Of a DNA stretch of 64,000 nt, positions 4,995 to 20,214 are shown one piece after another. Position 1 is the stretch's first letter. Every line of letters starts with the position of its first letter. Source of the stretch: Brevibacterium epidermidis NBRC 14811 (GTDB lineage Bacteria > Actinomycetota > Actinomycetes > Actinomycetales > Brevibacteriaceae); NCBI RefSeq assembly GCF_001570805.1, contig NZ_BCSJ01000003.1, positions 310,001-374,000 on the forward strand, written 5' to 3'. The notes beneath the pieces are model-generated. The model saw nothing but the letters and a program-made list of their open reading frames with translations, ran no database searches and was not told where the DNA came from. Both the position numbers and the translations under genes were made by a program.

Positions 4995-7900
4995 ATGGCT
5001 CGGTTCAGCTTCCTCGAGTGGCCGGTACTCCGGCAATTCCGCACGTCGGACAAGACGGGACGCGGCGAATCCGTGGTGTCCCAGCAGACTCGAGACACCA
5101 CCCCACGCACGGTCACGGCCGACAAGGTCGTCCAATCCGTGTGCCCGTACTGCGCCGTCGGCTGCGGACAGAAGATCTTCGTCAAGGACGACAAGGTCGT
5201 GCAGATCGAAGGCGACCCGGACTCACCGATCTCGCGCGGACGCCTATGCCCGAAGGGTGCAGCCAGCGAACAGCTCGTCAACAACCCGGGCCGAGTCACC
5301 GACGTCCTCTACCGGGCCCCGAAGGCCAAGGACTGGACGAAGATCGACCTGCCGACCGCGATCGACATGATCGCCGACCGGTTCATCGAAGCCCGCCGCA
5401 ACCACTGGGAGGACTTCGACGACAAAGGCCACCCGCTGCGGCGGACGATGGGCATCGCCAGCCTCGGCGGAGCAACGATCGACAACGAGGAGAACTACCT
5501 CGCGAAGAAGCTCTACACCGCGGCCGGGGCAATACAGATCGAGAACCAGGCGCGTATTTGACACTCCGCCACGGTTCCCAGTTTGGGAACCTCGTTCGGG
5601 CGCGGCGGCGCCACACAACCCGTCCAGGATATGGCGAATGCGGACTGCATCATCATCCAGGGTTCCAATATGGCCGAGTGCCACCCCGTGGGCTTCCAAT
5701 GGGTGACCGAGGCCAAGGCCCGTGGTGCCCGCATCATCCACGTCGATCCTCGTTTCACGCGCACCACCGCGATCGCCGATAAGCATGTGCCCATCCGGGC
5801 CGGCTCCGACATCGTGCTGCTCGGTGCGCTCATCAACCGTGTCCTGACCGAGGGACGCTACTTCGACGAGTACGTGCGCGCCTACACCAACGCCGCGAAC
5901 CTCATCAGCGACGACTATGTCGACACCGAGGATCTCGACGGACTGTTCTCCGGATTCGACCCGGACACGAACTCGTACGAGAACTCGACGTGGTCTTATC
6001 AGACGGATGAGCACGGTGCACCGCTCAAGGACCCCAGCCTGGAGAACCCGAAGTCGGTCTTCCAGATCCTGCGGCACCACTACTCGCGCTACACGCCCGA
6101 AATGGTCGAGGAGAACTGCGGAATCAAGCCCGCTGACTTCGACTACCTCTACGAATCGGTGACCGAGAACTCGGGCCGGGAACGGACCACGTGCTTCGCC
6201 TACGCGGTCGGCTGGACTCAGCACACCCTCGGCGCGCAATTCATCCGCACCGCCTCGATCCTCCAGCTCCTGCTGGGCAATATGGGTCGTCCGGGCGGCG
6301 GAATCATGGCGCTGCGCGGGCACGCGACGATTCAGGGATCGACCGATATCCCGACCCTGTTCAACCTGTTGCCCGGCTACCTGCCGATGCCCAGCGCCGG
6401 AGTCCACGACACCTTCGACGACTACGTCGCAGCCGTCGGCACCCCGGAGACCCATAAGGGCTACTGGGCCAACGGTCGCGCCTACGCCACCAGCCTGCTG
6501 AAGGCCTGGTGGGGCGATGCGGCGACGAAAGACAACGACTTCGCCTATGACTATCTGCCGCGCATCAACGGCGCCCACGGCACCTACCAGACCGCGGTGC
6601 GCATGCTCAACGACGGCGTCGACGGCTATTTCCTGCTCGGACAGAACCCGGCCGTGGGATCGGCCAACGGGCGCATGCAGCGCATGGCGATGAGCCACCT
6701 GAAGTGGATGGTTGTGCGCGACTTCAGCCTCATCGAATCCGCCACCTGGTGGAAGGACGGCCCCGAGATCGAGACCGGGGAGCTGAAGACCGAGGACATC
6801 GACACCGAGATGTTCTTCCTGCCGGCGGCCAACCACACGGAGAAGGCCGGCACGTTCACGCAGACTCAGCGTCTCGTGCAGTGGCGCCACAAGGCCGTCA
6901 ATCCGCCCGGGGACGCACAGAGCGAGCTCGACTTCTTCTTCGAACTCGGCCAAGCCGTGCGCGAGAAGCTGAAGGACTCCGACGACCCCCGAGATCGGCC
7001 GCTGCTCGACATGACCTGGGACTACCCGGTCGACGACGAGGGCGAAGTCGACGCCGAGGCGGTCGTCAAGGAGATCAACGGCTACTTCATCGGCGGTGAG
7101 CGCGACGGTGAGCCGCTGGAGAACTTCAACCAGATGACCGACGACGGTGCCACCGCAGGAGGCTGCTGGATCTACGCTGGTGTCTACGCGGGAGGCCAGA
7201 ACATGGCCGCGCGCCGCAAACCGCGCGACGAGCAGGACGAGACCGCCGCCGAATGGGCGTGGGCATGGCCGGCGAACCGTCGGATCCTGTACAACCGTGC
7301 CTCCGCCGCACCCGACGGAACTCCCTGGTCGGAGCGGAAGAAGTTCGTGTGGTGGGACGAGGAGACCGGGAAGTGGACCGGCAAGGACGTGCCCGACTTC
7401 CCGATCGACCGAGCCCCTGCCGCCCGATCGGATGCCGCCTACGGGGGTCCCGCGAACCTCGACGGCGATGATCCCTTCATCATGCAGGCCGACGGCAAAG
7501 GGTGGCTGTTCGCACCCAGCGGCATGATCGACGGACCGATTCCCACTCATTACGAACCGCAGGAATCGACGGTCACGAACCCGCTGTACTCACAGCAGAA
7601 CAGCCCGACCCGGATGGTCATGCGCCGCGAGGACAACCTGTCCGCACCCGGTGCCGGAGTGCCCGGATCCGAGGTCTTCCCCTATGTGTTCACCACCTAC
7701 CGTCTCACCGAGCACCACACCGCCGGAGGCATGTCCCGGTGGCTGCCGTACCTGTCGGAGTTGCAGCCGGAGATGTTCTGCGAGATCTCACCGGAACTCG
7801 CCGCCGAGGTGGGTCTCGAACCCTACGGATGGGCGACCCTGGTCTCCCCGCGGGCGGCCATCGAGGCCCGCGTCCTCGTGACCCGCCGCATGACCCCGCT

Positions 7901-8576
7901 GACGATCGGCGGGAAGACGGTCCACCAGATCGGCCTGCCCTATCACTGGGGCGTGGGCGGCACGGGAGCCGTCGTCGAAGGCGACTCCGCCAACGACCTG
8001 CTCGGTGTGACGATGGACCCCAACGTCTACATCCAGAACAGCAAGTACGTGGCCGGAACGATCATGCCCGGCCGCCGTCCCCGCGGACCCGAACTCGTCG
8101 ACTTCGTCGAGAAGTACCAGCGAGAGGCCGGGCTCAGCCCCGAATCGGGCAACCAGCAGGTCACGGTGTCCGCCGAGGATGTCGAGACCTCCCACGACGC
8201 CGGACATGGTCGCAGCTCTGGTGGGCACGCTCACCGAGGCGGCGACTCGGCCGTCGGCGTCACCCCCGGAAAGACCCTGGACGGGGGACCGCAGGGAAGT
8301 TCCGATCGGAACGATACGACCGCCTCGGCGACGGTCGACAGCGCCGAGGATCGCAGCGGCAGGATCACCATCGAACCCGCCGAGGCGACCGAGTCCGCCG
8401 AACCGACTGAGACGGCTGTGGCGAACCGCGCCGACGACGGGGACCCCACCGACGGGGACCCCGACCACGGACGGCACGCCGACGGCAGTGCGATCGCCGA
8501 CACCGAGGTGGCCGAAGCGGAATCTCGCGCCCGCGCTGCCCGGGACCGGCAGGAGAACGAGGAGGAGGACGACTGA
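4995..8576 (+). CDS. fdhA: Formate dehydrogenase, selenocysteine-containing catalytic (alpha) subunit
   Basis: 1193 residues read through an in-frame TGA at 5559-5561 as selenocysteine (residue 189). Both halves are in the same frame and the context NQARI-Sec-HSATV...TSFGRGG matches the active site of molybdenum/tungsten bis-pterin formate dehydrogenases. The N-terminal [4Fe-4S] motif is CPYCAVGCGQ with RGRLCPKG. Later landmarks: GNMGRPGGG, ALRGHATIQGSTD and the C-terminal MopB domain with TYRLTEHHTAGGMSRW. Start at ATG 4995 gives the conserved N-terminus MARFSFLEWPVLRQFR; an upstream in-frame ATG at 4959 is possible. It oxidises formate to CO2 and passes electrons to the ferredoxin-like subunit encoded next (overlap of one base at 8576). 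No Tat signal is seen, so the enzyme is probably cytoplasmic. The last ~140 residues (from about 8150) are a Ser/Thr/Glu/Asp-rich tail with no homology I recognise. Confidence 0.93.
5559..5591 (+). promoter_or_regulatory. UGA selenocysteine codon with bacterial SECIS-like hairpin
   Basis: The UGA (5559-5561) is followed after exactly 11 nt by a perfect 7-bp hairpin, GGTTCCC (5573-5579), loop AGTTT (5580-5584), GGGAACC (5585-5591). Spacing and a GU-containing apical loop match the minimal SECIS recognised by SelB in Escherichia coli fdhF/fdnG. It is inside the coding sequence and is translated as well. Confidence 0.88.
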
Positions 8577-9703
8577 TGTCGACACCGACGATCGATGGGG
8601 GCGCGCTCGCGGACGGGCACTGGCACGATTCCGCGCACAACCGCAAGGGATTCTTCACCGACACCTCGATCTGCATCGGCTGCAAAGCCTGCGAGGTTGC
8701 GTGCAAGGAGTGGAACAACAACCCTCAGGACGGCACCTTCGAACTGCTCGGCTCCTCCTACGACAACACTGGCAGCCTCGGTGCGAACACCTGGCGGCAC
8801 GTCGCGTTCATCGAACAGGATTCAGAACGCATCGAGCAGGCGCGGGAATCCGGACGCAAACTCGTCAACCTCGGCATGCCCACGATCCGCCCGCGCACCG
8901 ATGAGAACGCTGGTGCACAACCGTTGGACGGGGCTTTGGGAGCCGCTGCCGAGGGCCGGAACTCCGCCGGACTGCCGACGACTCCTGAACTGAACGTCGA
9001 CCTCTTGGCCCCCGGAGCCTTGGAGCCGACCGACCTGTCCGGCGTCGACACGACCCCTCCGGACACCGCTGACTTCCGGTGGCTGATGTCCTCTGACGTG
9101 TGCAAACACTGCACTCACGCCGGCTGCCTCGACGTCTGCCCGACCGGTGCGCTCTTCCGCACCGAATTCGACACCGTCGTCGTTCAGAACGACGTCTGCA
9201 ACGGCTGTGGCACCTGCGTGGCCGGCTGCCCCTTCGGCGTCATCGAACGCCGCGACGACGGCACGATCAACACCCCCACCGACCGCGATGACCGCAAAGC
9301 CGCGGACATGGACGTGCCGAACGCGGGCACAGCGAACAAGTGCACCCTCTGCTACGACCGCCTCGTCGAAGGTCAGGAACCCGCCTGCGCGCAGACCTGC
9401 CCGACCCAGTCGATCAAGTTCGGCGACCGTCAGGACATGGTCGACCAGGCACATGAGCGCGTGGCCGAACTCCACGCGAAGGGCCTGACCGAGGCCCGCC
9501 TGTACGGGGCGAACCCGAACGACGGGGTCGGCGGCACCGGATCCGTGTTCCTCCTCCTCGACGAACCCGAGGTCTACGGCCTGCCGCCCGACCCGCGGGT
9601 CGCGACGAAGGACCTGCCGAAGATGTACGCCAACGCCGGAATCGCGGCGCTGGGCATGGTCGCCGCCGCCGGACTCGCGTTCCTCGGGAGCCGCCGTTCA
9701 TGA
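8576..9703 (+). CDS. Formate dehydrogenase iron-sulfur (beta) subunit
   Basis: 375 residues with four cysteine clusters for [4Fe-4S] centres: CIGCKACEVACKEWN (~residue 33), CKHCTHAGCLDVCPTG (~180), CNGCGTCVAGCPFG and CTLCYDRL...ACAQTCP. It moves electrons from the catalytic subunit to the membrane partner. About 80 residues between the first and second clusters are linker-like. A C-terminal hydrophobic helix (GIAALGMVAAAGLAFLG) could anchor it to the membrane, with the clusters facing the cytoplasm. Starts within the fdhA stop and ends overlapping the next start by 4 bp, so the three genes form one translation-coupled operon. Confidence 0.93.
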   Translation: MSTPTIDGGALADGHWHDSAHNRKGFFTDTSICIGCKACEVACKEWNNNPQDGTFELLGSSYDNTGSLGANTWRHVAFIEQDSERIEQARESGRKLVNLGMPTIRPRTDENAGAQPLDGALGAAAEGRNSAGLPTTPELNVDLLAPGALEPTDLSGVDTTPPDTADFRWLMSSDVCKHCTHAGCLDVCPTGALFRTEFDTVVVQNDVCNGCGTCVAGCPFGVIERRDDGTINTPTDRDDRKAADMDVPNAGTANKCTLCYDRLVEGQEPACAQTCPTQSIKFGDRQDMVDQAHERVAELHAKGLTEARLYGANPNDGVGGTGSVFLLLDEPEVYGLPPDPRVATKDLPKMYANAGIAALGMVAAAGLAFLGSRRS

Positions 9704-10989
9704 GCACATCAGAATACGATTCCTACCGCCCACCCGAGCCCGAAGGCGGACGCAGAAAACGTCGCCGAGGCGGCCGTGGAGGTCCCGGCGGACCTGGCGG
9801 TTCCGGTGGTCGACGGGGCGGCGGGTGGAAGAACCGCGGAGCCGATGGCAACCGTGAGATGCCGATGGTCGAGGACGTCGAATTCACCTCGTATTACGGC
9901 CGACCGATCGTCAAGGCTCCACCGTGGGGCGACGAGATCGGTGCGTACCTGTTCCTCGGCGGTCTGGCCGGGGGCTCATCTCTGCTGGGCTTCGGCGCAC
10001 AACTGACCGACCGGCCCGGCATGCGCATCGCCTCCCGGATGACCGCGATCGCCGCGACCGGCATCGGCGGTGCCGCACTCGTGGCCGACCTCGGCCGGCC
10101 CGAACGGTTCCTCAACATGATGCGCGTGGTCAAAGTGTCGTCGCCGATGAGCTTGGGCACGTGGATCCTCTCGGGCTTCGGCGTCGGATCGGGTGTGACC
10201 TTCGCGATCGAACTCGACCGAATCACGGGTGAGAAGCTGCTGCCCCTGGGCCCGCTGCGCAAGGTGCTCCACGGTCTGGAGACGCCAGCCGCTGTTGAGT
10301 CCGCCTTCTTTGCCACACCGCTGGCCGCATATACCGCCGTGCTTCTGGGGGCGACGGCCGTTCCGACGTGGAACGCTGCCGGTCGCAATGGTCTGCCGTT
10401 TGTGTTCGTGTCCTCGGCTTCCATGGCCGCCGGAGGCGCCGCGATGGCATTGGCGCCGGTCGCCGAGACCGGACCGGCCAGGCTGCTCGCGCTCGCCGGG
10501 ACTGCCGGTGAGGCCTATGCGATGTCGGCGATGAAGAAGCGCATGCACCCGGCCGAGGTCGATCCGATGGACGACGGCGAACCCGGACACAAGCTCCACC
10601 GGGCCGAGAAGCTGCTCATCGCCGGAGCCGTCGGTGCCGCCGCCGTCGAGGTGGGGGCGCGCGTGTTCGCGAAGAAGCTGGGTGGGCGTAGCTCTGGCGG
10701 CTCAGCGAGTGCTTCAGGTGTGGCTGGCGCAGTTGCTGAGGCTGTCGGAAGTGCAGGCTCTGCTGGGGTAGCAAAGCGGAGCTGGAAGACGCGTGCTGTG
10801 CTGCGCGGACTGTCCGTCGTCTCCGGTGCGGCCTTGGCGGCCGCCTCGGCGTATACGCGCTTCGGAATGCTCGAGGCCGGCATCGAATCGACGAAGGACC
10901 CGCGTCACGTGGTCGAACCGCAGCGCGCTCGCCTCGAAGAGCGTCGCGCGGCGGGCATCACCGACGACTCCATCACCACCGGGCGGTAG
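9700..10989 (+). CDS. NrfD/PsrC-like membrane subunit of formate dehydrogenase
   Basis: 429 residues. After a strikingly Arg/Gly-rich cytoplasmic N-terminus (residues ~15-50, GGRRKRRRGGRGGPGGPGG) come several hydrophobic segments with NrfD hallmarks (GAYLFLGGLAGGSSLLG, ALVADLGRPERFLNMMRV, SPMSLGTWIL). NrfD proteins pass electrons between an iron-sulfur subunit and the quinone pool, so this is the likely quinone link of the complex. The region ~325-365 is Ser/Gly/Ala-rich. Last gene of the fdh operon. Confidence 0.88.
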   Translation: MSTSEYDSYRPPEPEGGRRKRRRGGRGGPGGPGGSGGRRGGGWKNRGADGNREMPMVEDVEFTSYYGRPIVKAPPWGDEIGAYLFLGGLAGGSSLLGFGAQLTDRPGMRIASRMTAIAATGIGGAALVADLGRPERFLNMMRVVKVSSPMSLGTWILSGFGVGSGVTFAIELDRITGEKLLPLGPLRKVLHGLETPAAVESAFFATPLAAYTAVLLGATAVPTWNAAGRNGLPFVFVSSASMAAGGAAMALAPVAETGPARLLALAGTAGEAYAMSAMKKRMHPAEVDPMDDGEPGHKLHRAEKLLIAGAVGAAAVEVGARVFAKKLGGRSSGGSASASGVAGAVAEAVGSAGSAGVAKRSWKTRAVLRGLSVVSGAALAAASAYTRFGMLEAGIESTKDPRHVVEPQRARLEERRAAGITDDSITTGR

Positions 10990-11534: not shown

Positions 11535-12521
11535 TCACCGCACGTGCACGCCTGAGCCGGCGACGATCTCGCCGATAACGGGGTGACCAGGCAGTTCGCC
11601 CACGACCAGCAGTCCACCCGACGTCTGCGCATCGGCCAGGAGCAGCAGGTCGTCCTCACTTACCGAATCATCGGCAGTAAGGTTCGGCCGCACCCAGTCG
11701 AGGTTGCGCCGGGTCCCACCGGAGACATATCCGGCAGCGATCGACTCATCGACTCCGTCGAGGCGGGGCACCGCAGCCGCATCGATGACCGCTCCGACTC
11801 CGGAGGCCCGTGCCATCTTGAACAGGTGCCCGAGCAGGCCGAAACCGGTGACGTCCGTGGCTGCCCGCACGCCTGCAGCCACAGCCGCCCGTGAGGCCTC
11901 GGCGTTGAGCGCGGTCATCGTGGCGATCGCCTCGTCGAAGGTCTCACCGGTGACTTTGTGTCGGTTGTTGAGGATCCCCACCCCGATCGGCTTCGTCAAT
12001 GTCAGCGGCAGACCCGCCTCGGCGGAATCATTGCGCATGAGCTCATCCGGGTGGGCCACGCCCGTCACGGCCATCCCGTACTTCGGCTCGGGATCGTCGA
12101 TCGAATGACCGCCGGCGACGGGGCAGTTCGCCTGCGCCGCAACATCGAGCCCGCCGCGCAGAACCTCGGTGAGCAGCTCCATCGGCAGCTTCTCCCGCGG
12201 CCATCCGACGAGGTTGATCGCCGTGACCGGGGTCCCGCCCATCGCGTAGATGTCGGACAGGGCATTGGCCGCGGCGATGCGCCCCCAGTCGTAGGCATTG
12301 TCGATGACAGGGGTGAAGAAGTCCGCCGTCGAGAGCACCGCGAGGTCGTCTCGGACCCGCACCGCCGAGGCATCATCGCCGTCGTCGAGGCCGACGAGGA
12401 CATCGGGACCGGACTGACCGACCAACCCGCGCACCGCATCCTCGAGCTCGCCGGGGGGAATCTTGCAGGCGCATCCTCCACCGTGGGCGAACGAGGTCAG
12501 ACGGTCCTGAATCGCAGTCAT
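11535..12521 (-). CDS. selD: Selenide, water dikinase (selenophosphate synthetase)
   Basis: 328 residues, family length. Makes selenophosphate from selenide and ATP, the selenium donor for SelA. The N-terminus carries the catalytic pair as GGGCACK with Cys17 and Lys20, the same numbering as the E. coli enzyme. ATP/Mg sites: GLDDGDDASAV, STADFFTPVIDNAYDWG, ANALSDIYAMGGTP, AGGHSIDDPEPKYG, TDVTGFGLLGH and AQTSGGLL. The cysteine (not selenocysteine) form is present, so synthesis does not depend on itself. Transcribed opposite to the fdh operon and to selAB. Confidence 0.96.
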   Translation of the reverse strand: MTAIQDRLTSFAHGGGCACKIPPGELEDAVRGLVGQSGPDVLVGLDDGDDASAVRVRDDLAVLSTADFFTPVIDNAYDWGRIAAANALSDIYAMGGTPVTAINLVGWPREKLPMELLTEVLRGGLDVAAQANCPVAGGHSIDDPEPKYGMAVTGVAHPDELMRNDSAEAGLPLTLTKPIGVGILNNRHKVTGETFDEAIATMTALNAEASRAAVAAGVRAATDVTGFGLLGHLFKMARASGVGAVIDAAAVPRLDGVDESIAAGYVSGGTRRNLDWVRPNLTADDSVSEDDLLLLADAQTSGGLLVVGELPGHPVIGEIVAGSGVHVR

Positions 12522-12632: not shown

Positions 12633-15600
12633 TCAGTGCCTCCCCGCCGGACGGCCGGCCCGCCGCGCGCGGGCCGCGCGGACGGCGATGATTCCGCCGA
12701 TGACCAGCAACGCGCCGAGCAGTGCGGTGAGCAGAACCGGTCCGCCGGTGCGTGGCAGATCCCCACCCCCGTCGGACGATCCGCCCCCGTCGGACGATCC
12801 GTCCACGTTTGCGCCGCTTCCTGACGAGGCACTCGAAGAGGCATTCGACGAGGCTCCGGCCGAACCGCTTCCCGCCGAGGAATCCTCATCGGCACCGGCC
12901 GAGGCCTTGGTCGAGGCGCCGTCATCGTCCGACCCCTCCGATGAGCCGTCCTCGCCTCCCGTGGAGGAAGCGTCGGAGCCGTCCTCAGCTCCCGCACTGT
13001 CGGCGGATCCGCCGCTGTCGGCCGATCCGTCGTCATCGCCGGGACCCGGAGGCGGTTCTTCCCCCGCGACCTCGACGGTGGCCTTCGCAGTCTTGCCGTT
13101 GACGGTGACCTCGAGGACCGCGGTTCCCGGGTTCTCCGCGGTGATCTGACCCGTCGCCGGGTTGACGCGGACGACGTCGGAGGCCGCCTCGGGGACCCCT
13201 GATTTCACTGACTGGGCACTGACCTTCGCACCCGTCGCCTGCTGCATGTCCACCTCGGCGCCGGAATCGACCACGACACCGTCGCCGCCCCATTGGGCGG
13301 TCGCCGGCCACCCGACGGGAACGGTGCGCTCACCCTGTGTGAAGGACGCCGCGACGTCCGCGGACTGGCCCGGGGCCAGGGAGCCGGGTGCCTCGAGTGA
13401 GATCGAATCGACGCGCGGCTTCGTCTCCGCGGCCAGCCAGCCGACCCTATCGGCTGTGGTCGGATCGTCCCCGACGTCGCCGACGCCGGGATCGATGCCG
13501 AGCATCGTCCACCCGGTGAATCCGCCGGTCGCCGGGGTGCCGGCCGGATCCTTCCCGGAATTGCCGTTGATCAGGTAGCTCACGCCCTCCATCGCGGACC
13601 CGTGGAATGCTCCTACGTGGCCGTTGATCACGGCCGCGGACTTCCCGCTGTCCTTGCGGAACTCTCCGAGCTTCTTCTCGAGTTCCGCGGCCTCCCGTCG
13701 GTCCCCGAGCTGGCTCGTCTCCGACGGCAGCGGATCCTGCGGGGGATGGTGGAAGAACACGGTGATGCCGGTCAGCTCGTCACGTTCGGCCACCTCGTCG
13801 AGGGCGTCTTCGAGCATGTTCAACTGCGAATCATCGCTGCCGTTGAGGGTCCCGTCCGAGGAATTCAGGGTCACGATCTTCGTCCGCCCCACGGTGTGCT
13901 CGCCCGTCGGGGAACCGAATGCGGCCTCGAAGTTGTCGATCTCCCCACCCATGATCTCGTGGTTGCCAGGCACGTAGATGTAGGGGATCGACTCATCCCA
14001 CTCCTCGTCGATGATCGTCTTCGCCAGGTCGAAATCCTCCTGAGAGGCCTCGTCGACGAGGTCGCCGTTGATGACGAGCAGATCCGGCTTTGCGGCACGG
14101 ATCTCCTTGAGCGTCCGCCTGGCACCCTTGACAGCTTCGGAATCCGGGTCGGTGGCGACGAACTGGGCGTCGCTCATCACGGCGATGTTCTGCGGACGGT
14201 CAGCGACGGTCCCGGTCGTCAGCAGCGCCGGATCATGCCGCGCCGAGGTGGCCGGATCGTCGGTCTCAGGCGTGGAGATCGCCTGGAGGTCGGAGATCGA
14301 AATGTCCCCCTTGTACTTCTCGGCAGACCGGGTCTCCATCATCCGGATTCGTTCGAGGGTGAGCGGTTGGGAGAGCCCCTCGGGGACGGTGAAGCGGACC
14401 TTCTGCCACCCGTCGAAGGTGATGTGGTCGCCGTCGATGTTCGTCACTGTGCCGTCGGGAGTGCTCACCTGCAGCCTCGGCCAGGCCCCGGTGCCGTCGC
14501 CGCGGACCATCATCTCGAACGCCACCGTGTTGCCTTCCAGCTTCACCGGCTCCTTCGGGATGAGGTAGTAGCCGCGCGTCGCCGAGGAGGTGGAGAAGTC
14601 ATATGTGAGATCGATGCTCGGCTTGCCATCAGGGCTGGGCTCACCTGCGGTGAATGAGCCGGTGGCCCGATCGTGGCCGTCGGTGAACGCCGAGGTGTCG
14701 GAGAAGTCGAGGACCTCGGTCGTTTCGGTGCCGACGGTCACCGGGATCGTCGTTGTCACGTCTCCGACGGTGAGCTTCACGTTCCCGGACGTCGGTTCGT
14801 CGTCGCGGGAGTCCTTGCCTTTCCCAGCCGTCGACGAATCGGCGGAGACGACGAGTTCGCCGAGTCCGTCGGTGTCGACCGTCAGCCCTTCGTCGGCGTC
14901 GACGTCGATGTCGCCGGTTTCGATGAGAGAACGCCTGCCCTCGGAGTCGAAGCCGGTCAGGGACACCGTCTGCGAGTCCTGGGCGTCCTCGAGGTTGATG
15001 CTCCGCGCGCTCGGCCAGAGTCCGACCGGTTCGCCGAGCACATCGAGGTCCTGTCGCGCGGTGTGCCCGTCGACGGCATAGCTCACGCGACCCTTGCCGG
15101 TGGTCTCACCGGTCACGCGGGCGTTCGACTCATCGGAGTCGGCGAGCTTCACTCCGCCGTCGGCGGAGAACGTTCCGGAGGAGGCGATCGGTTCGAGATT
15201 CTTACCGAGCCCGGTACCCCTCATCGATCGGCTCAGCCCCTTGAGCACGGTGGTCTGTCCGTCGAGTTCGGGTTCGATCTGCGCATCGGCCAGCTGCTCT
15301 GCGGGGGCGTCTGAGTAGAAGACGAGGGCATTGGCGACGGTGCGCTGCTTACCGTCGGACGGGTCGTTCTGCAGTGCCGGAGCATCTGCGCCGGCTGTGC
15401 GGGCGAGCATCGTCGTCGACCCGCCGCCGTCGAGGTTGACCGCGTTGTAGGCGCCGATGTCAGCGAAGAACTCGCCCATGTCCTCGAGACTCATGCCTCC
15501 CGAGGACTCGCTGCGTCCGTCGATGGTGGTGACGAACAGCTCCGAACCGTCCTTGCTGATGCCCACCGCGGTGCGCGGGTGTTCGGTGTCTTCGAGGTCG

Positions 15601-16580
15601 CCGGCGGGGAGGTCGGGAACCGAGCCGTCGGCCAGGATCTGGTGGCTGCCCGCGATCCCCATGTCGACATCCTCGCTCGGTCCGATCTCGACATCGACGT
15701 CGTCGCCGACTTCGAGTTCCGACAGCGTCTTCGCCCCGGCATCGCGGCCGAGTAGGACCTGTCCGTCTGCCGGGATTTCCGGGTCGCCCGCTTCGTCCAC
15801 CATGCCCGAGGTTTCGGTGACCTTTCCGTCGACGACAGTGACGCGGGCGACCTCGGCGGCTATGTCATCGGGGCCGCCGACCGGACGGTCGAGCGTATGG
15901 TCTCCCCACGCCTCGTTGTACACACCGATGGTGTCGGGACTCAGCTCCGGGTTGTTCAATCCGCCGAGTTCCGTCTCCTGCCCGTCATGGGTCAGCGTTC
16001 CCGCCGCGGAGAGCATCGACACGGCTGCCTTCTTGTCCTCGAGCGTGAGCGCCGGTTTGGCCTCCTTCGAGCCGATGCGCATTCCCTCCCGAGACACCGA
16101 GGTGTAGATCGGTGCCCACGACTGGTTGATGTCGAAGAACGTGCCGTTGACGGCGGCCACGGCCTTCTTCCCCTCGGGTCCGCCCGCCATGATCTCGCTG
16201 GTGGTACCGGCGCCGGCGACCTTTCCCGTGTCGCGGACGTCCATCGACAGGGAGTCCGTGGTGAGGTCCGCGGTGAGCACATTGCCGTTGTTCCACCCTC
16301 CGTCCTCGAGACGGGAGAAGTTCGTCAGGTCGAGTCCCGGAGCCACGCGTTTGGTTTCGACGTCGCGCAGTGCCGACCCGTCCCTGCCGAGGTCGTCATC
16401 ACTCTGCGGTGCCGCATAGGCCGGCGTTGAGGCGGGACCCGGAAGACTGGGAAGCGATCCGGTGGGTGCGATAGGGGCAGCGAGGACCGCCAGTGTGGCG
16501 AGGATGGCGGGGATGAAAAGTCGCGCTCCGGCGGGATGGGATCGGCGGTGTGACCAGGCAGGATGAAGCGAAGAGGGCAT
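12633..16580 (-). CDS. LPxTG-anchored phosphodiester glycosidase / metallophosphatase surface protein
   Basis: 1315 residues. An N-terminal signal peptide (LFIPAILATLAVLAAPIAP) leads into a phosphodiester glycosidase (NAGPA/DUF2233) domain at roughly residues 130-430 (AVNGTFFDI, VNLDGGGSTTM). A central beta-rich region follows, then a calcineurin-like metallophosphatase at ~780-1020: SDAQF, VINGDLVDE, VPGNHEI, FFHHPPQD, VINGHVGAFH. In the first metal motif the usual D-x-H is D-A-Q. A bacterial Ig-like segment, a long Ser/Gly/Asp linker and the sortase signal LPRTG plus TM helix and basic tail finish the protein. It should be covalently fixed to peptidoglycan and cleave sugar-phosphodiester and phosphoester bonds outside the cell; substrate unknown. 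It lies between selD and tRNA-Sec without obvious link to selenium. Confidence 0.88.
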   Translation of the reverse strand: MPSSLHPAWSHRRSHPAGARLFIPAILATLAVLAAPIAPTGSLPSLPGPASTPAYAAPQSDDDLGRDGSALRDVETKRVAPGLDLTNFSRLEDGGWNNGNVLTADLTTDSLSMDVRDTGKVAGAGTTSEIMAGGPEGKKAVAAVNGTFFDINQSWAPIYTSVSREGMRIGSKEAKPALTLEDKKAAVSMLSAAGTLTHDGQETELGGLNNPELSPDTIGVYNEAWGDHTLDRPVGGPDDIAAEVARVTVVDGKVTETSGMVDEAGDPEIPADGQVLLGRDAGAKTLSELEVGDDVDVEIGPSEDVDMGIAGSHQILADGSVPDLPAGDLEDTEHPRTAVGISKDGSELFVTTIDGRSESSGGMSLEDMGEFFADIGAYNAVNLDGGGSTTMLARTAGADAPALQNDPSDGKQRTVANALVFYSDAPAEQLADAQIEPELDGQTTVLKGLSRSMRGTGLGKNLEPIASSGTFSADGGVKLADSDESNARVTGETTGKGRVSYAVDGHTARQDLDVLGEPVGLWPSARSINLEDAQDSQTVSLTGFDSEGRRSLIETGDIDVDADEGLTVDTDGLGELVVSADSSTAGKGKDSRDDEPTSGNVKLTVGDVTTTIPVTVGTETTEVLDFSDTSAFTDGHDRATGSFTAGEPSPDGKPSIDLTYDFSTSSATRGYYLIPKEPVKLEGNTVAFEMMVRGDGTGAWPRLQVSTPDGTVTNIDGDHITFDGWQKVRFTVPEGLSQPLTLERIRMMETRSAEKYKGDISISDLQAISTPETDDPATSARHDPALLTTGTVADRPQNIAVMSDAQFVATDPDSEAVKGARRTLKEIRAAKPDLLVINGDLVDEASQEDFDLAKTIIDEEWDESIPYIYVPGNHEIMGGEIDNFEAAFGSPTGEHTVGRTKIVTLNSSDGTLNGSDDSQLNMLEDALDEVAERDELTGITVFFHHPPQDPLPSETSQLGDRREAAELEKKLGEFRKDSGKSAAVINGHVGAFHGSAMEGVSYLINGNSGKDPAGTPATGGFTGWTMLGIDPGVGDVGDDPTTADRVGWLAAETKPRVDSISLEAPGSLAPGQSADVAASFTQGERTVPVGWPATAQWGGDGVVVDSGAEVDMQQATGAKVSAQSVKSGVPEAASDVVRVNPATGQITAENPGTAVLEVTVNGKTAKATVEVAGEEPPPGPGDDDGSADSGGSADSAGAEDGSDASSTGGEDGSSEGSDDDGASTKASAGADEDSSAGSGSAGASSNASSSASSGSGANVDGSSDGGGSSDGGGDLPRTGGPVLLTALLGALLVIGGIIAVRAARARRAGRPAGRH

Positions 16581-16779: not shown

Positions 16780-16874
16780 GGAGGCGTCCGTGTCCTGGTG
16801 GGCGCCCTGGTCTTCAAAACCAGTGAGACCGAGTATCTCGGTCTGGCGGGTTCGATTCCCGTCCGCCTCCGCCA
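16780..16874 (+). tRNA. selC: tRNA-Sec (anticodon UCA)
   Basis: 95 nt with encoded CCA. Acceptor GGAGGCG (16780-16786) pairs with CGCCTCC (16864-16870); an eighth opposed position is U-C. Anticodon stem CTGGT/ACCAG with loop CTTCAAA puts TCA at 16814-16816. A long variable arm (AGACCGAG-TAT-CTCGGTCT) and T-stem GCGGG/CCCGT with a basal G-U pair, as in E. coli selC, are specific to tRNA-Sec. Its UCA anticodon reads the UGA of fdhA. selA starts 64 bp downstream on the same strand. Confidence 0.97.
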
Positions 16875-16937
16875 ACCGTTTCGCGGTCCCGCCGACTCAG
16901 CGGCCCCGCCGTGACCCCGCATCGAGGAGGAGGTCAG

Positions 16938-18317
16938 ATGGTCGAGTCCGACCCGCGCCGGTCCATTCCGCGCACGGATCATCTCCTCGCCCTGCCCGAG
17001 GTCATCGCCGCAGGTGAGCGCCTCAACCAGGCGACCATCAAGGCGATCATCTCCGAGGTGCAGACCGCGGCCCGAGCCGGTGAGATCCCTGTCGCTGAGG
17101 TGGCCCCCACCATTGTCTCCTCGCTCGCTTCCCGTTCGGCCTCCTCCCTGACCCCGGTGCTCAACGCCACCGGCATCCTCGTCCACACGAACCTCGGCCG
17201 GGCACCGCTCTCACCTGCGGCGACACAGGCCATCACCGAGGCGGCCGGCTACGTCGACGTCGAAATGGACCTCGGCACCGGCAAACGCAGCAAGCGGGGG
17301 ACCGGAGCGAAAGCCGCCCTGCTGCGGGCCTGCCCGGCGGCCGAGGACGCCCTTGTCGTCAACAACGGAGCCGCCGCCCTGCTGCTGGCTGTCACTGCAC
17401 TGCGCGGCCGCGGCAGTTCCGGCACCGCGGCCTCGGCGAATATCGATCCTGTGCGGAAATCAGCATCCCCCACCGCCGAGCCCGGCGAGATCATCATCAG
17501 CCGCGGCGAACTCATCGAAATCGGCGCCGGATTCCGCCTCACCGACCTCATGACGACGACCGGCGCCAGGCTGCGCGAGGTCGGCACGACGAACCGCACC
17601 CACCTGGCCGACTACGCCGAGGCCATCAACGACGACACGTCCTGCCTGCTCAAGGTGCATACGAGCAACTTCCGCGTCGAAGGATTCACCTCCTCCGTCG
17701 AGGTCGCCGAACTTTGCACACTCGCCGACGAACACGAGCTGCCGCTCCTAGTCGACCTTGGCTCCGGACTCTTCACCCCCGACCCGGCTCTGCCCGACGA
17801 ACCCGACATCGACACCGCCCTGCGCGCCGGCGCCGACCTCGTCATCGTCTCCGGCGACAAACTCCTCGGCGGCCCGCAGGCCGGCCTCATCCTCGGCCGC
17901 ACCGAAGCAGTGCAGACACTGGCCAAACACCCCCTGGCCAGAGCGCTGCGCACGGACAAACTCACCCTCGCCGCACTCGAAGCCACGATCACGCACACGG
18001 CGAACCCGATCCACGACGCCCTCCACATCGACCCGGACCGTCTGCGCGAACGCACCGAAACCCTCGCCGAGGCGGTCGGTGCCACGATCGTCGAACACGA
18101 CGGACGAGTCGGCGGAGGGGGAGCTCCCGGCGTGCCCCTGCCCGGCTGGGCAGTCGAACTTCCCGAAGCCTGTGCCGCGCCGCTGCGCCGCGGCGATCCT
18201 GCGATCGTCGCCCGAGTCCACCGGGGACGATGCTTGGTCGACCTGCGTTGCGTACCCGATAGCGAAGACAACCGCATCGCTACCGCCATCAAGCGAGTCC
18301 GTGCTGACAATGCCTGA
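16938..18317 (+). CDS. selA: L-seryl-tRNA(Sec) selenium transferase
   Basis: 459 residues. PLP enzyme that converts Ser-tRNA-Sec to Sec-tRNA-Sec using selenophosphate. ATG 16938 is chosen because GAGGAGG lies 7 nt upstream; an earlier GTG at 16911 sits before that site. Motifs: PVLNATGILVHTNLGRAPL, the GxGxKR-like MDLGTGKRSKRGTGAKAALL, VNNGAAALLL, and the PLP-lysine segment SGDKLLGGPQAGLILG. Overlaps selB by 8 bp, consistent with translational coupling, and follows tRNA-Sec. Confidence 0.97.
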   Translation: MVESDPRRSIPRTDHLLALPEVIAAGERLNQATIKAIISEVQTAARAGEIPVAEVAPTIVSSLASRSASSLTPVLNATGILVHTNLGRAPLSPAATQAITEAAGYVDVEMDLGTGKRSKRGTGAKAALLRACPAAEDALVVNNGAAALLLAVTALRGRGSSGTAASANIDPVRKSASPTAEPGEIIISRGELIEIGAGFRLTDLMTTTGARLREVGTTNRTHLADYAEAINDDTSCLLKVHTSNFRVEGFTSSVEVAELCTLADEHELPLLVDLGSGLFTPDPALPDEPDIDTALRAGADLVIVSGDKLLGGPQAGLILGRTEAVQTLAKHPLARALRTDKLTLAALEATITHTANPIHDALHIDPDRLRERTETLAEAVGATIVEHDGRVGGGGAPGVPLPGWAVELPEACAAPLRRGDPAIVARVHRGRCLVDLRCVPDSEDNRIATAIKRVRADNA

Positions 18318-20214
18318 CACTTTCGTCATCGCCACCGCCGGACACGTCGATCACGGGAAGTCGACCCTGGTCAACGCCCTCACCGGGATGGAACCCGACC
18401 GGTGGGCCGAAGAGAAGAAGCGCGGGCTGACCATCGACCTCGGTTTCGCCTGGACGACCCTGCCCTCGGGGCGCGAACTCGCCTTCGTCGACGTTCCGGG
18501 GCACGAAAAATTCCTCTCGAACATGCTCGCCGGGCTCGGCCCGGCCCCCATCGCCTGCTTCGTCATCGCCGCCGACAAAGGCTGGCAAGCCCAATCGAGT
18601 GACCACCGCGACGCGATCAATGCCCTCGGCATCACCCACGGCCTCGTCGTCATCACCCGCGCCGACCTCGCCCCCGACTCCGTCGACACTACAAAAGCCC
18701 AGGTCAGCGCGCAGCTGCGTGGAACAACGCTCGAAGCTGCGCCGATCGTCACGGTCTCGGCCACGACCGGAGAAGGCCTGCCCGAACTCATCAGCGTTCT
18801 CGACGAGGTCACGGCCACGGCCAAGTCCCCGGCCGCCTCGGGGAGGGTTCGCCTGTGGGTCGACCGCGCGTTCACGATTAGGGGCGCCGGCACCGTCGTC
18901 ACCGGAACCCTCACCGCAGGCACCCTGACCACCGGCGATACCGTCGAACTGCGCGGTGAGACCATCGACCGGACCGTGGGTGTGCGGGGTCTGCAATCCC
19001 GGAATTCCACCACCAACGAGGTGGCCCCACAGGCTCGCGTGGCCGTCAACCTCCGCGACGTTCCCGCCGACGACCTCCACCGCGGCGACGCCTTGCTCAC
19101 TGCCGGAGCTTGGACGATCATCGACACGATCGACGTGCGCCGCACCATGGGCGAGCCACTCGATTCCGGCATCCACGAACTCATGGCCCATATCGGCACC
19201 GCCGCCGTGCCTGCCAGGCTGCGATCCTTCGACGCCGATCACGCCCGGCTCACCCTCGACCGACCACTTCCTGTGCAGGTCAGCGACCGGATCGTGCTGC
19301 GCGCCCCGGGCAGCCGCAACGTATTCGCGGGTCTCCTCGTCCTCGACGTCGACCCGCCCGAACTGACCCGGCGCGGCGACGGTGCCAGGCTGGCTCGGGA
19401 GCTCGCCGAGCGTCCCATCGAAGGCGACATCCTCGCCGAGGCGTCCCGCCGAGGAGCCGTCGAACGCTCTGTCCTCACCCGGTTCGGACTCCAAGTGCCC
19501 GAAGCCGGCTCCCTGCCGGCCGAGGTAGAGGAGGTGGGCGGCTGGATCGTCCACGCGCCGGCGCTGACAGCCTGGGTCGAGTCGGCGAAATCACTGGTCA
19601 GCCGTGAACTCGCCGCCTCGCCGATGGCCGCGGGAGTGCCCGTCAAAGCCGTCGCAGAGGCACTTCAGCGAACTCCGGATTCAGGTCGCAGACGCGGCGC
19701 CGAATCGAAACGCGACTCCCCGGCGAAGGCGAAAATCCAACCGGCTCTGCCTCTGCCCGAAGGCTCCGGCGGCGCGATTCGCGCACTGCTCAACCAGATC
19801 ATCTCCCGCGCCGGGCTCGAAGCCGTCGACGGAATGGTCCGCCCGCCCGGGCATACCTCGGGACTCGGTGCCGCAGAAGCCGGGATCGCCGAGATCGAGC
19901 GCCGACTTGCAGCCGACCCGTTCGCGGCACCGGAAGCCGACGACCTGCGCGAACTCGGTCTCGGAGCGCGGGAGCTTGCGGTCGCCGAGAAGGCGGGACG
20001 GATCCTGCGCCTCGGCGACGGAATCATCGTGTCTCCGCGCACTCCCGCGCAGGCGATGCGGATCCTCGCCGGTCTCGCCCAGCCCTTCACCACGAGCCAG
20101 GCGAGGCAGGCGCTGGGGACGACCCGACGCGTCGTCATCCCTCTCCTCGAACATCTCGACGGCCGGGGCTGGACGCGCCGACTCGACACCACACACCGCG
20201 AAGTCGTGCGCTGA
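18310..20214 (+). CDS. selB: Selenocysteine-specific elongation factor
   Basis: 634 residues from the ATG 18310. EF-Tu-like GTPase that delivers Sec-tRNA-Sec to the ribosome at UGA and binds the SECIS hairpin through C-terminal winged helices. G1 is GHVDHGKST (residues 10-18), G3 DVPGHEKF, and the NKxD-type position reads TRAD. The C-terminal third (from ~residue 390) is the winged-helix region typical of bacterial SelB. Length is normal for the family. Downstream no further sel gene is seen. Confidence 0.97.
   Translation: MPDTFVIATAGHVDHGKSTLVNALTGMEPDRWAEEKKRGLTIDLGFAWTTLPSGRELAFVDVPGHEKFLSNMLAGLGPAPIACFVIAADKGWQAQSSDHRDAINALGITHGLVVITRADLAPDSVDTTKAQVSAQLRGTTLEAAPIVTVSATTGEGLPELISVLDEVTATAKSPAASGRVRLWVDRAFTIRGAGTVVTGTLTAGTLTTGDTVELRGETIDRTVGVRGLQSRNSTTNEVAPQARVAVNLRDVPADDLHRGDALLTAGAWTIIDTIDVRRTMGEPLDSGIHELMAHIGTAAVPARLRSFDADHARLTLDRPLPVQVSDRIVLRAPGSRNVFAGLLVLDVDPPELTRRGDGARLARELAERPIEGDILAEASRRGAVERSVLTRFGLQVPEAGSLPAEVEEVGGWIVHAPALTAWVESAKSLVSRELAASPMAAGVPVKAVAEALQRTPDSGRRRGAESKRDSPAKAKIQPALPLPEGSGGAIRALLNQIISRAGLEAVDGMVRPPGHTSGLGAAEAGIAEIERRLAADPFAAPEADDLRELGLGARELAVAEKAGRILRLGDGIIVSPRTPAQAMRILAGLAQPFTTSQARQALGTTRRVVIPLLEHLDGRGWTRRLDTTHREVVR

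Follow-up and report, generated by a model that had tools for sequence, protein, structure and literature searches.

RESULTS

An interrupted formate dehydrogenase gene and its neighbourhood

Within the window analysed here, a 64,000-nt stretch of the Brevibacterium epidermidis NBRC 14811 genome, the gene fdhA occupies positions 4995 to 8576 on the forward strand and encodes the alpha subunit of a formate dehydrogenase, a predicted selenoprotein of 1193 amino acids in which selenocysteine (Sec) would be residue 189. We took ATG 4995 as the start codon, the alternative being GTG 4959. The initial annotation had held that automatic gene callers split fdhA at position 5561 and that the two halves nevertheless share one reading frame. 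Indeed, the mechanical list of open reading frames breaks the gene there, and the frame running from ATG 4995 to 8576 is open throughout, with the in-frame TGA at 5559–5561 as its sole interruption.

The residues around this codon had been likened to the Sec active site of formate dehydrogenases, in good agreement with our alignments. FdhA matches PDB entries 1kqf (E. coli FdnG; E=2.9e-208) and 1h0h (E=1.2e-201); both have their solved selenocysteine, written X, at exactly the position of the TGA. The active-site motif reads NQARI-U-HSATV, in which U-H is conserved relative to the two structures, as is the region of the conserved Arg (MALRGHATIQG aligned with NALRGHSNIQG). The protein contains Pfam molybdopterin domains and scores 1838.3 bits against NCBIfam NF041513 (formate_DH_Act, type ‘exception’; curated cut-off 1400) and 932 against TIGR01553 (cut-off 814). 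FdhA thus passes the family cut-offs over the whole protein and retains the catalytic UGA, His and Arg expected of a selenoprotein formate dehydrogenase alpha subunit. Beyond the family profile it carries an acidic, low-complexity C-terminal tail of about 150 residues (8124–8573), and its N-terminus, near 4995, has no obvious twin-arginine signal, in which it differs from E. coli FdnG.

Immediately downstream on the forward strand lie fdhB (8576–9703), encoding an iron-sulphur beta subunit with Fer4 domains (TIGR01582, 1.3e-48, under the cut-off of that family), and a gene for an NrfD-like membrane subunit (9700–10989; PF03916, 6.6e-17) that is the likely gamma partner of the dehydrogenase. 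All the dedicated Sec genes, which the initial annotation had placed in this same window, were located by family and tRNA matches no more than 12 kb from the end of fdhA. The selenophosphate synthetase gene selD (11535–12521, reverse strand; TIGR00476, 1e-115) is of the Cys form, its translation containing no in-frame UGA. On the forward strand follow selC (16780–16874; RF01852, 76.7 bits), a tRNA-Sec with a UCA anticodon and an encoded CCA end; selA (16911–18317; TIGR00474, 3.9e-123), encoding L-seryl-tRNA(Sec) selenium transferase; and selB (18310–20214), encoding the Sec-specific elongation factor, whose start codon, ATG 18310, overlaps the end of selA. SelB, scored over 18271–20211, reaches 282 bits against TIGR00475 (cut-off 242) and ends in a C-terminal winged helix (SelB-wing_3). 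With selA, selB, selC and selD all present, the window carries the complete Sec-decoding trait. Between selD and selC the reverse strand (12633–16580) encodes a protein of 1315 aa containing domains of the NAGPA phosphodiester glycosidase and calcineurin-like phosphoesterase types.

A hairpin downstream of the UGA fits the bacterial SECIS model

In what follows, SECIS positions are numbered from the U of the UGA as position 1. After the UGA comes an 11-nt spacer (5562–5572, forward strand; CACTCCGCCAC), equal in length to that of E. coli fdhF and fdnG, and then the hairpin GGUUCCC-AGUUU-GGGAACC (5573–5591, forward strand), identified as the SECIS element by sequence, folding and conservation among orthologues. 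Its arms, GGTTCCC (5573–5579) and GGGAACC (5585–5591), enclose the loop AGTTT (5580–5584); positions 15–21 pair with 27–33 over 7 bp, and the loop, positions 22–26, includes G23-U24. The perfect 7-bp stem, the loop and the exact E. coli spacing described in the initial annotation were therefore all confirmed, the hairpin beginning at position 15 just as it does in fdhF and fdnG.

RNAfold adds one A-U pair, giving an 8-bp stem with a GUU loop and a predicted energy of −11.6 kcal/mol for the 19-mer. We compared the element with the bacterial SECIS model (bSECIS), taking its criteria as given in PMC13188914. Both foldings, one with 7 bp around a 5-nt loop and the other with 8 bp around a 3-nt loop, fall within the loop range of 3–9 nt and the upper-stem range of 4–16 bp, and either loop, AGUUU or GUU, has a G within its first two positions. 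The distance from the UGA to the apical loop is 18 nt (19 nt with the GUU loop; permitted range 16–37 nt), and the minimum free energy lies below the threshold of −7.5 kcal/mol. When the genome was searched with a model (R1) trained on fdhA alone, the fdhA hairpin was the only strong match (next E>1), a result that leaves room for other selenoproteins.

In its 64 kb the window contains 19 perfect 7-bp hairpins with a 5-nt loop; the stem by itself is common and unremarkable, its position and conservation being what decides. The abundance of such hairpins in so GC-rich a window favours a reading in which the UGA is read through independently of SelB, Trp, Cys or Arg being inserted by near-cognate suppression, and GC-rich coding sequence gives rise to the hairpin incidentally. 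With the protein and the local codon usage taken into account, the probability of a perfect hairpin at the SECIS site is 0.043, and that of a perfect hairpin with the GU loop is 0.0019.

The UGA and the hairpin are conserved among actinobacterial orthologues

Nearly all of the 57 Brevibacterium genomes searched carry fdhA, and TGA occupies the Sec site in every match that spans it. Among 194 sites located by motif, the codon is TGA in 186, TGC in 7 and TAG in 1, and UGA is conserved at this one catalytic codon across many genera of Actinobacteria. These counts bear on the reading suggested by the broken open reading frame, namely that the locus is a pseudogene or holds two distinct genes, the UGA being a true stop or a sequencing error. 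Such a reading is at odds with a UGA found in every site-spanning Brevibacterium match and in most of the actinobacterial orthologues, with the lack of a second disruption over about 1200 codons, and with strong constraint on the silent sites downstream of the UGA. We rejected it as exceedingly improbable, given that UGA is kept at a single catalytic codon across so many genera.

Some of the orthologous loci call for separate mention. Contigs labelled Dietzia (L105) and Brachybacterium MAG (L125) carry fdhA genes that closely resemble the Brevibacterium one (83% and 73%, respectively) and are possibly misbinned or transferred. Elsewhere, an orthologue has an apparent frameshift near residue 916 (G327, L214), a Cys-type orthologue has a Trp codon changed to TGA (G588, L215) and a further one has Glu changed to TAG (G664, L216); these additional disruptions probably stem from errors or from decay and not from a second Sec site.

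We then followed site changes within the hairpin on a tree of 152 Sec-type orthologues, with 93 distinct sequences. In each of the pairs 15-33, 18-30 and 21-27 both partners are third codon positions, as is position 24 in the loop. The synonymous sites 21, 24 and 27 show zero changes on this tree, and the flanking wobble sites 36, 39, 42 and 45 show 12 to 40 changes each. The third position of the His codon CAC directly after the UGA (position 6; codon at 5562–5564), which lies outside the hairpin, never changes either, and silent invariance alone is hence not peculiar to the hairpin. Codon choice within the element is nonetheless extreme: the Pro codon is CCC in 117/117 cases (background 37%), the loop codon for Ser or Gly is AGT or GGT in all 117 (background 4.3% of Ser and 17.7% of Gly codons, respectively), and G23-U24 is invariant in 93/93 distinct sequences.

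The covariance of the hairpin in orthologous genes, a check proposed in the initial annotation, is clearest at pair 18-30, which varies (UA, CG, UG, GU and GC) and remains paired in 92 of the 93 distinct sequences (shuffle mean 70.6; none of 5000 shuffles as high). Its covariation score is 0.283, compared with 0.147 for shuffled sequences and a maximum of 0.117 when the partners are slid. Just 2–3 independent T/C-A/G changes fall on well-supported branches, all in the expected direction. Because so few changes are supported, a phylogenetic sign test cannot reach significance, and the case for covariation therefore rests on the shuffles, the slid partners and the invariant silent sites. Taken together, the orthologue comparison shows selection on the hairpin at the RNA level. 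The loop U and the stem wobble sites either never vary or covary, contrary to codon bias, and this speaks against the SelB-independent readthrough outlined above.

The codon at the Sec site matches the Sec machinery

We compared the type of codon at this site with the Sec machinery of the genomes. A tRNA-Sec above the Rfam score was found in all six Sec-type genomes examined, including that of the B. epidermidis window. SelB of one Sec-type genome (G472) scores 228 bits, slightly below 242, and this cut-off is accordingly not absolute. Neither a tRNA-Sec above the Rfam gathering score nor a SelB above the cut-off was found in six Cys-type genomes (G105, G331, G364, G542, G595, G657) or in four Brevibacterium genomes in which fdhA was not detected (G022, G030, G037, G039).

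Orthologues with Cys and no hairpin had been put forward as a finding that would overturn the recoding. The 7 Cys (TGC) orthologues do lack both a U at loop position 24 and a hairpin at the SECIS place, but that argument was wrongly framed: since neither tRNA-Sec nor SelB scores above the cut-offs in the six of their genomes that were checked, these orthologues support Sec insertion. Finally, the one orthologue whose Sec codon is TAG (G681; L165, at G681:C7:184200-185400, and L212) comes from a genome with a CUA-anticodon tRNA that ARAGORN labels tRNA-Pyl and that scores 64 bits as an Rfam tRNA-Sec.

Both the distribution of selC, present in the Sec-type genomes checked and absent from the Cys-type or fdhA-less ones, and the TAG/CUA pair, in which codon and tRNA-Sec change together, run counter to SelB-free readthrough over a chance hairpin. 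Considering these together with the invariant or covarying loop and stem sites, we rejected that reading as very unlikely.

U17 faces a partner in the actinobacterial element

Positions U17, G23 and U24 of the SECIS have been described as non-variable, with U17 and G23 being SelB binding sites and U17 bulged from the 5' strand in E. coli-type elements (PMC8659212). The E. coli elements of fdhF (GGTTGCAGGTCTGCACC) and fdnG (GGTAGCAAGTCTTGCTCC) share with that of Brevibacterium the 11-nt spacer, a hairpin starting at position 15, U17 and the loop G23-U24. They differ in length: the Brevibacterium and other actinobacterial hairpins have 19 nt, compared with 17 or 18 nt in fdhF and fdnG, because one extra nucleotide, at position 31, faces U17. 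Consequently, U17 of the actinobacterial element is paired or mismatched, not bulged.

The B. epidermidis U17 pairs with A31. Of the 93 distinct sequences, 49 place A opposite U17, 31 place G and 13 place U; when both nucleotides are U, the folding prediction opens the stem precisely at U17, the site of the bulge in fdnG. The remark in the initial annotation that an obvious bulged U is lacking was thus correct as regards the bulge, but U17 itself is present at the E. coli position. The accompanying description of the element as unusually canonical does not hold: this is the normal fdhA element of Actinobacteria. By analogy, the Brevibacterium SECIS appears to work like the E. coli element, without structural identity. 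It is possible, though we lean slightly against it, that actinobacterial SelB recognises a variant with U17 in the helix (U-A, U.G or U.U), either by flipping U17 out or mainly through the G23-U24 loop.

DISCUSSION

In this study we have examined an in-frame UGA in B. epidermidis fdhA. Support for its recoding as Sec comes from homology to known selenoenzymes, conservation of the UGA in every site-spanning Brevibacterium match, covariation and constraint of the hairpin at synonymous sites, and the match between codon type and machinery across the genomes checked. On these sequence-based grounds we hold it to be nearly certain that fdhA encodes a Mo/W-pterin formate dehydrogenase alpha subunit with a UGA-encoded Sec189, made by means of SelA, SelD, selC, SelB and the hairpin. 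By analogy with known families, SelA and SelD would produce Sec-tRNA(Sec) from the selC tRNA; SelB would deliver it to the ribosome while binding the hairpin 11 nt past the UGA via G23-U24 and probably U17; Sec would be inserted at the UGA in place of release; and Sec189 would serve as an active-site metal ligand of the enzyme. The analysis upholds FdhA, whose gene simple callers break in two, as a selenoprotein; beyond annotation, it is of modest interest only, in how SelB copes with a U17 opposite a partner.

The Sec recoding and the SECIS of Brevibacterium fdhA are real and well supported; an arrangement of this kind was already known. A similar UGA-Sec FdhA clusters with sel genes in Corynebacterium aurimucosum (PMC2830990), and selA, selB, selD and fdnG have been recorded in strains of Brevibacterium (PMC12467314). 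Removal of formate by Actinomycetospora chiangmaiensis is selenium-dependent, its FdhA1 was detected by proteomics, and bSECISearch was used to look for SECIS elements (PMC7176365). Relative to the actinobacterial formate dehydrogenases of NF041513, whose curated cut-off B. epidermidis FdhA clears by a wide margin, nothing essential differs save the long acidic tail, and the hairpin is the standard actinobacterial fdhA SECIS, in an arrangement common to many related bacteria. Sec-UAG formate dehydrogenases have been reported in Geodermatophilaceae (PMC5330540); the G681 orthologue, with its TAG codon and CUA tRNA-Sec, is alike, whereas the Brevibacterium window combines UGA with a UCA anticodon.
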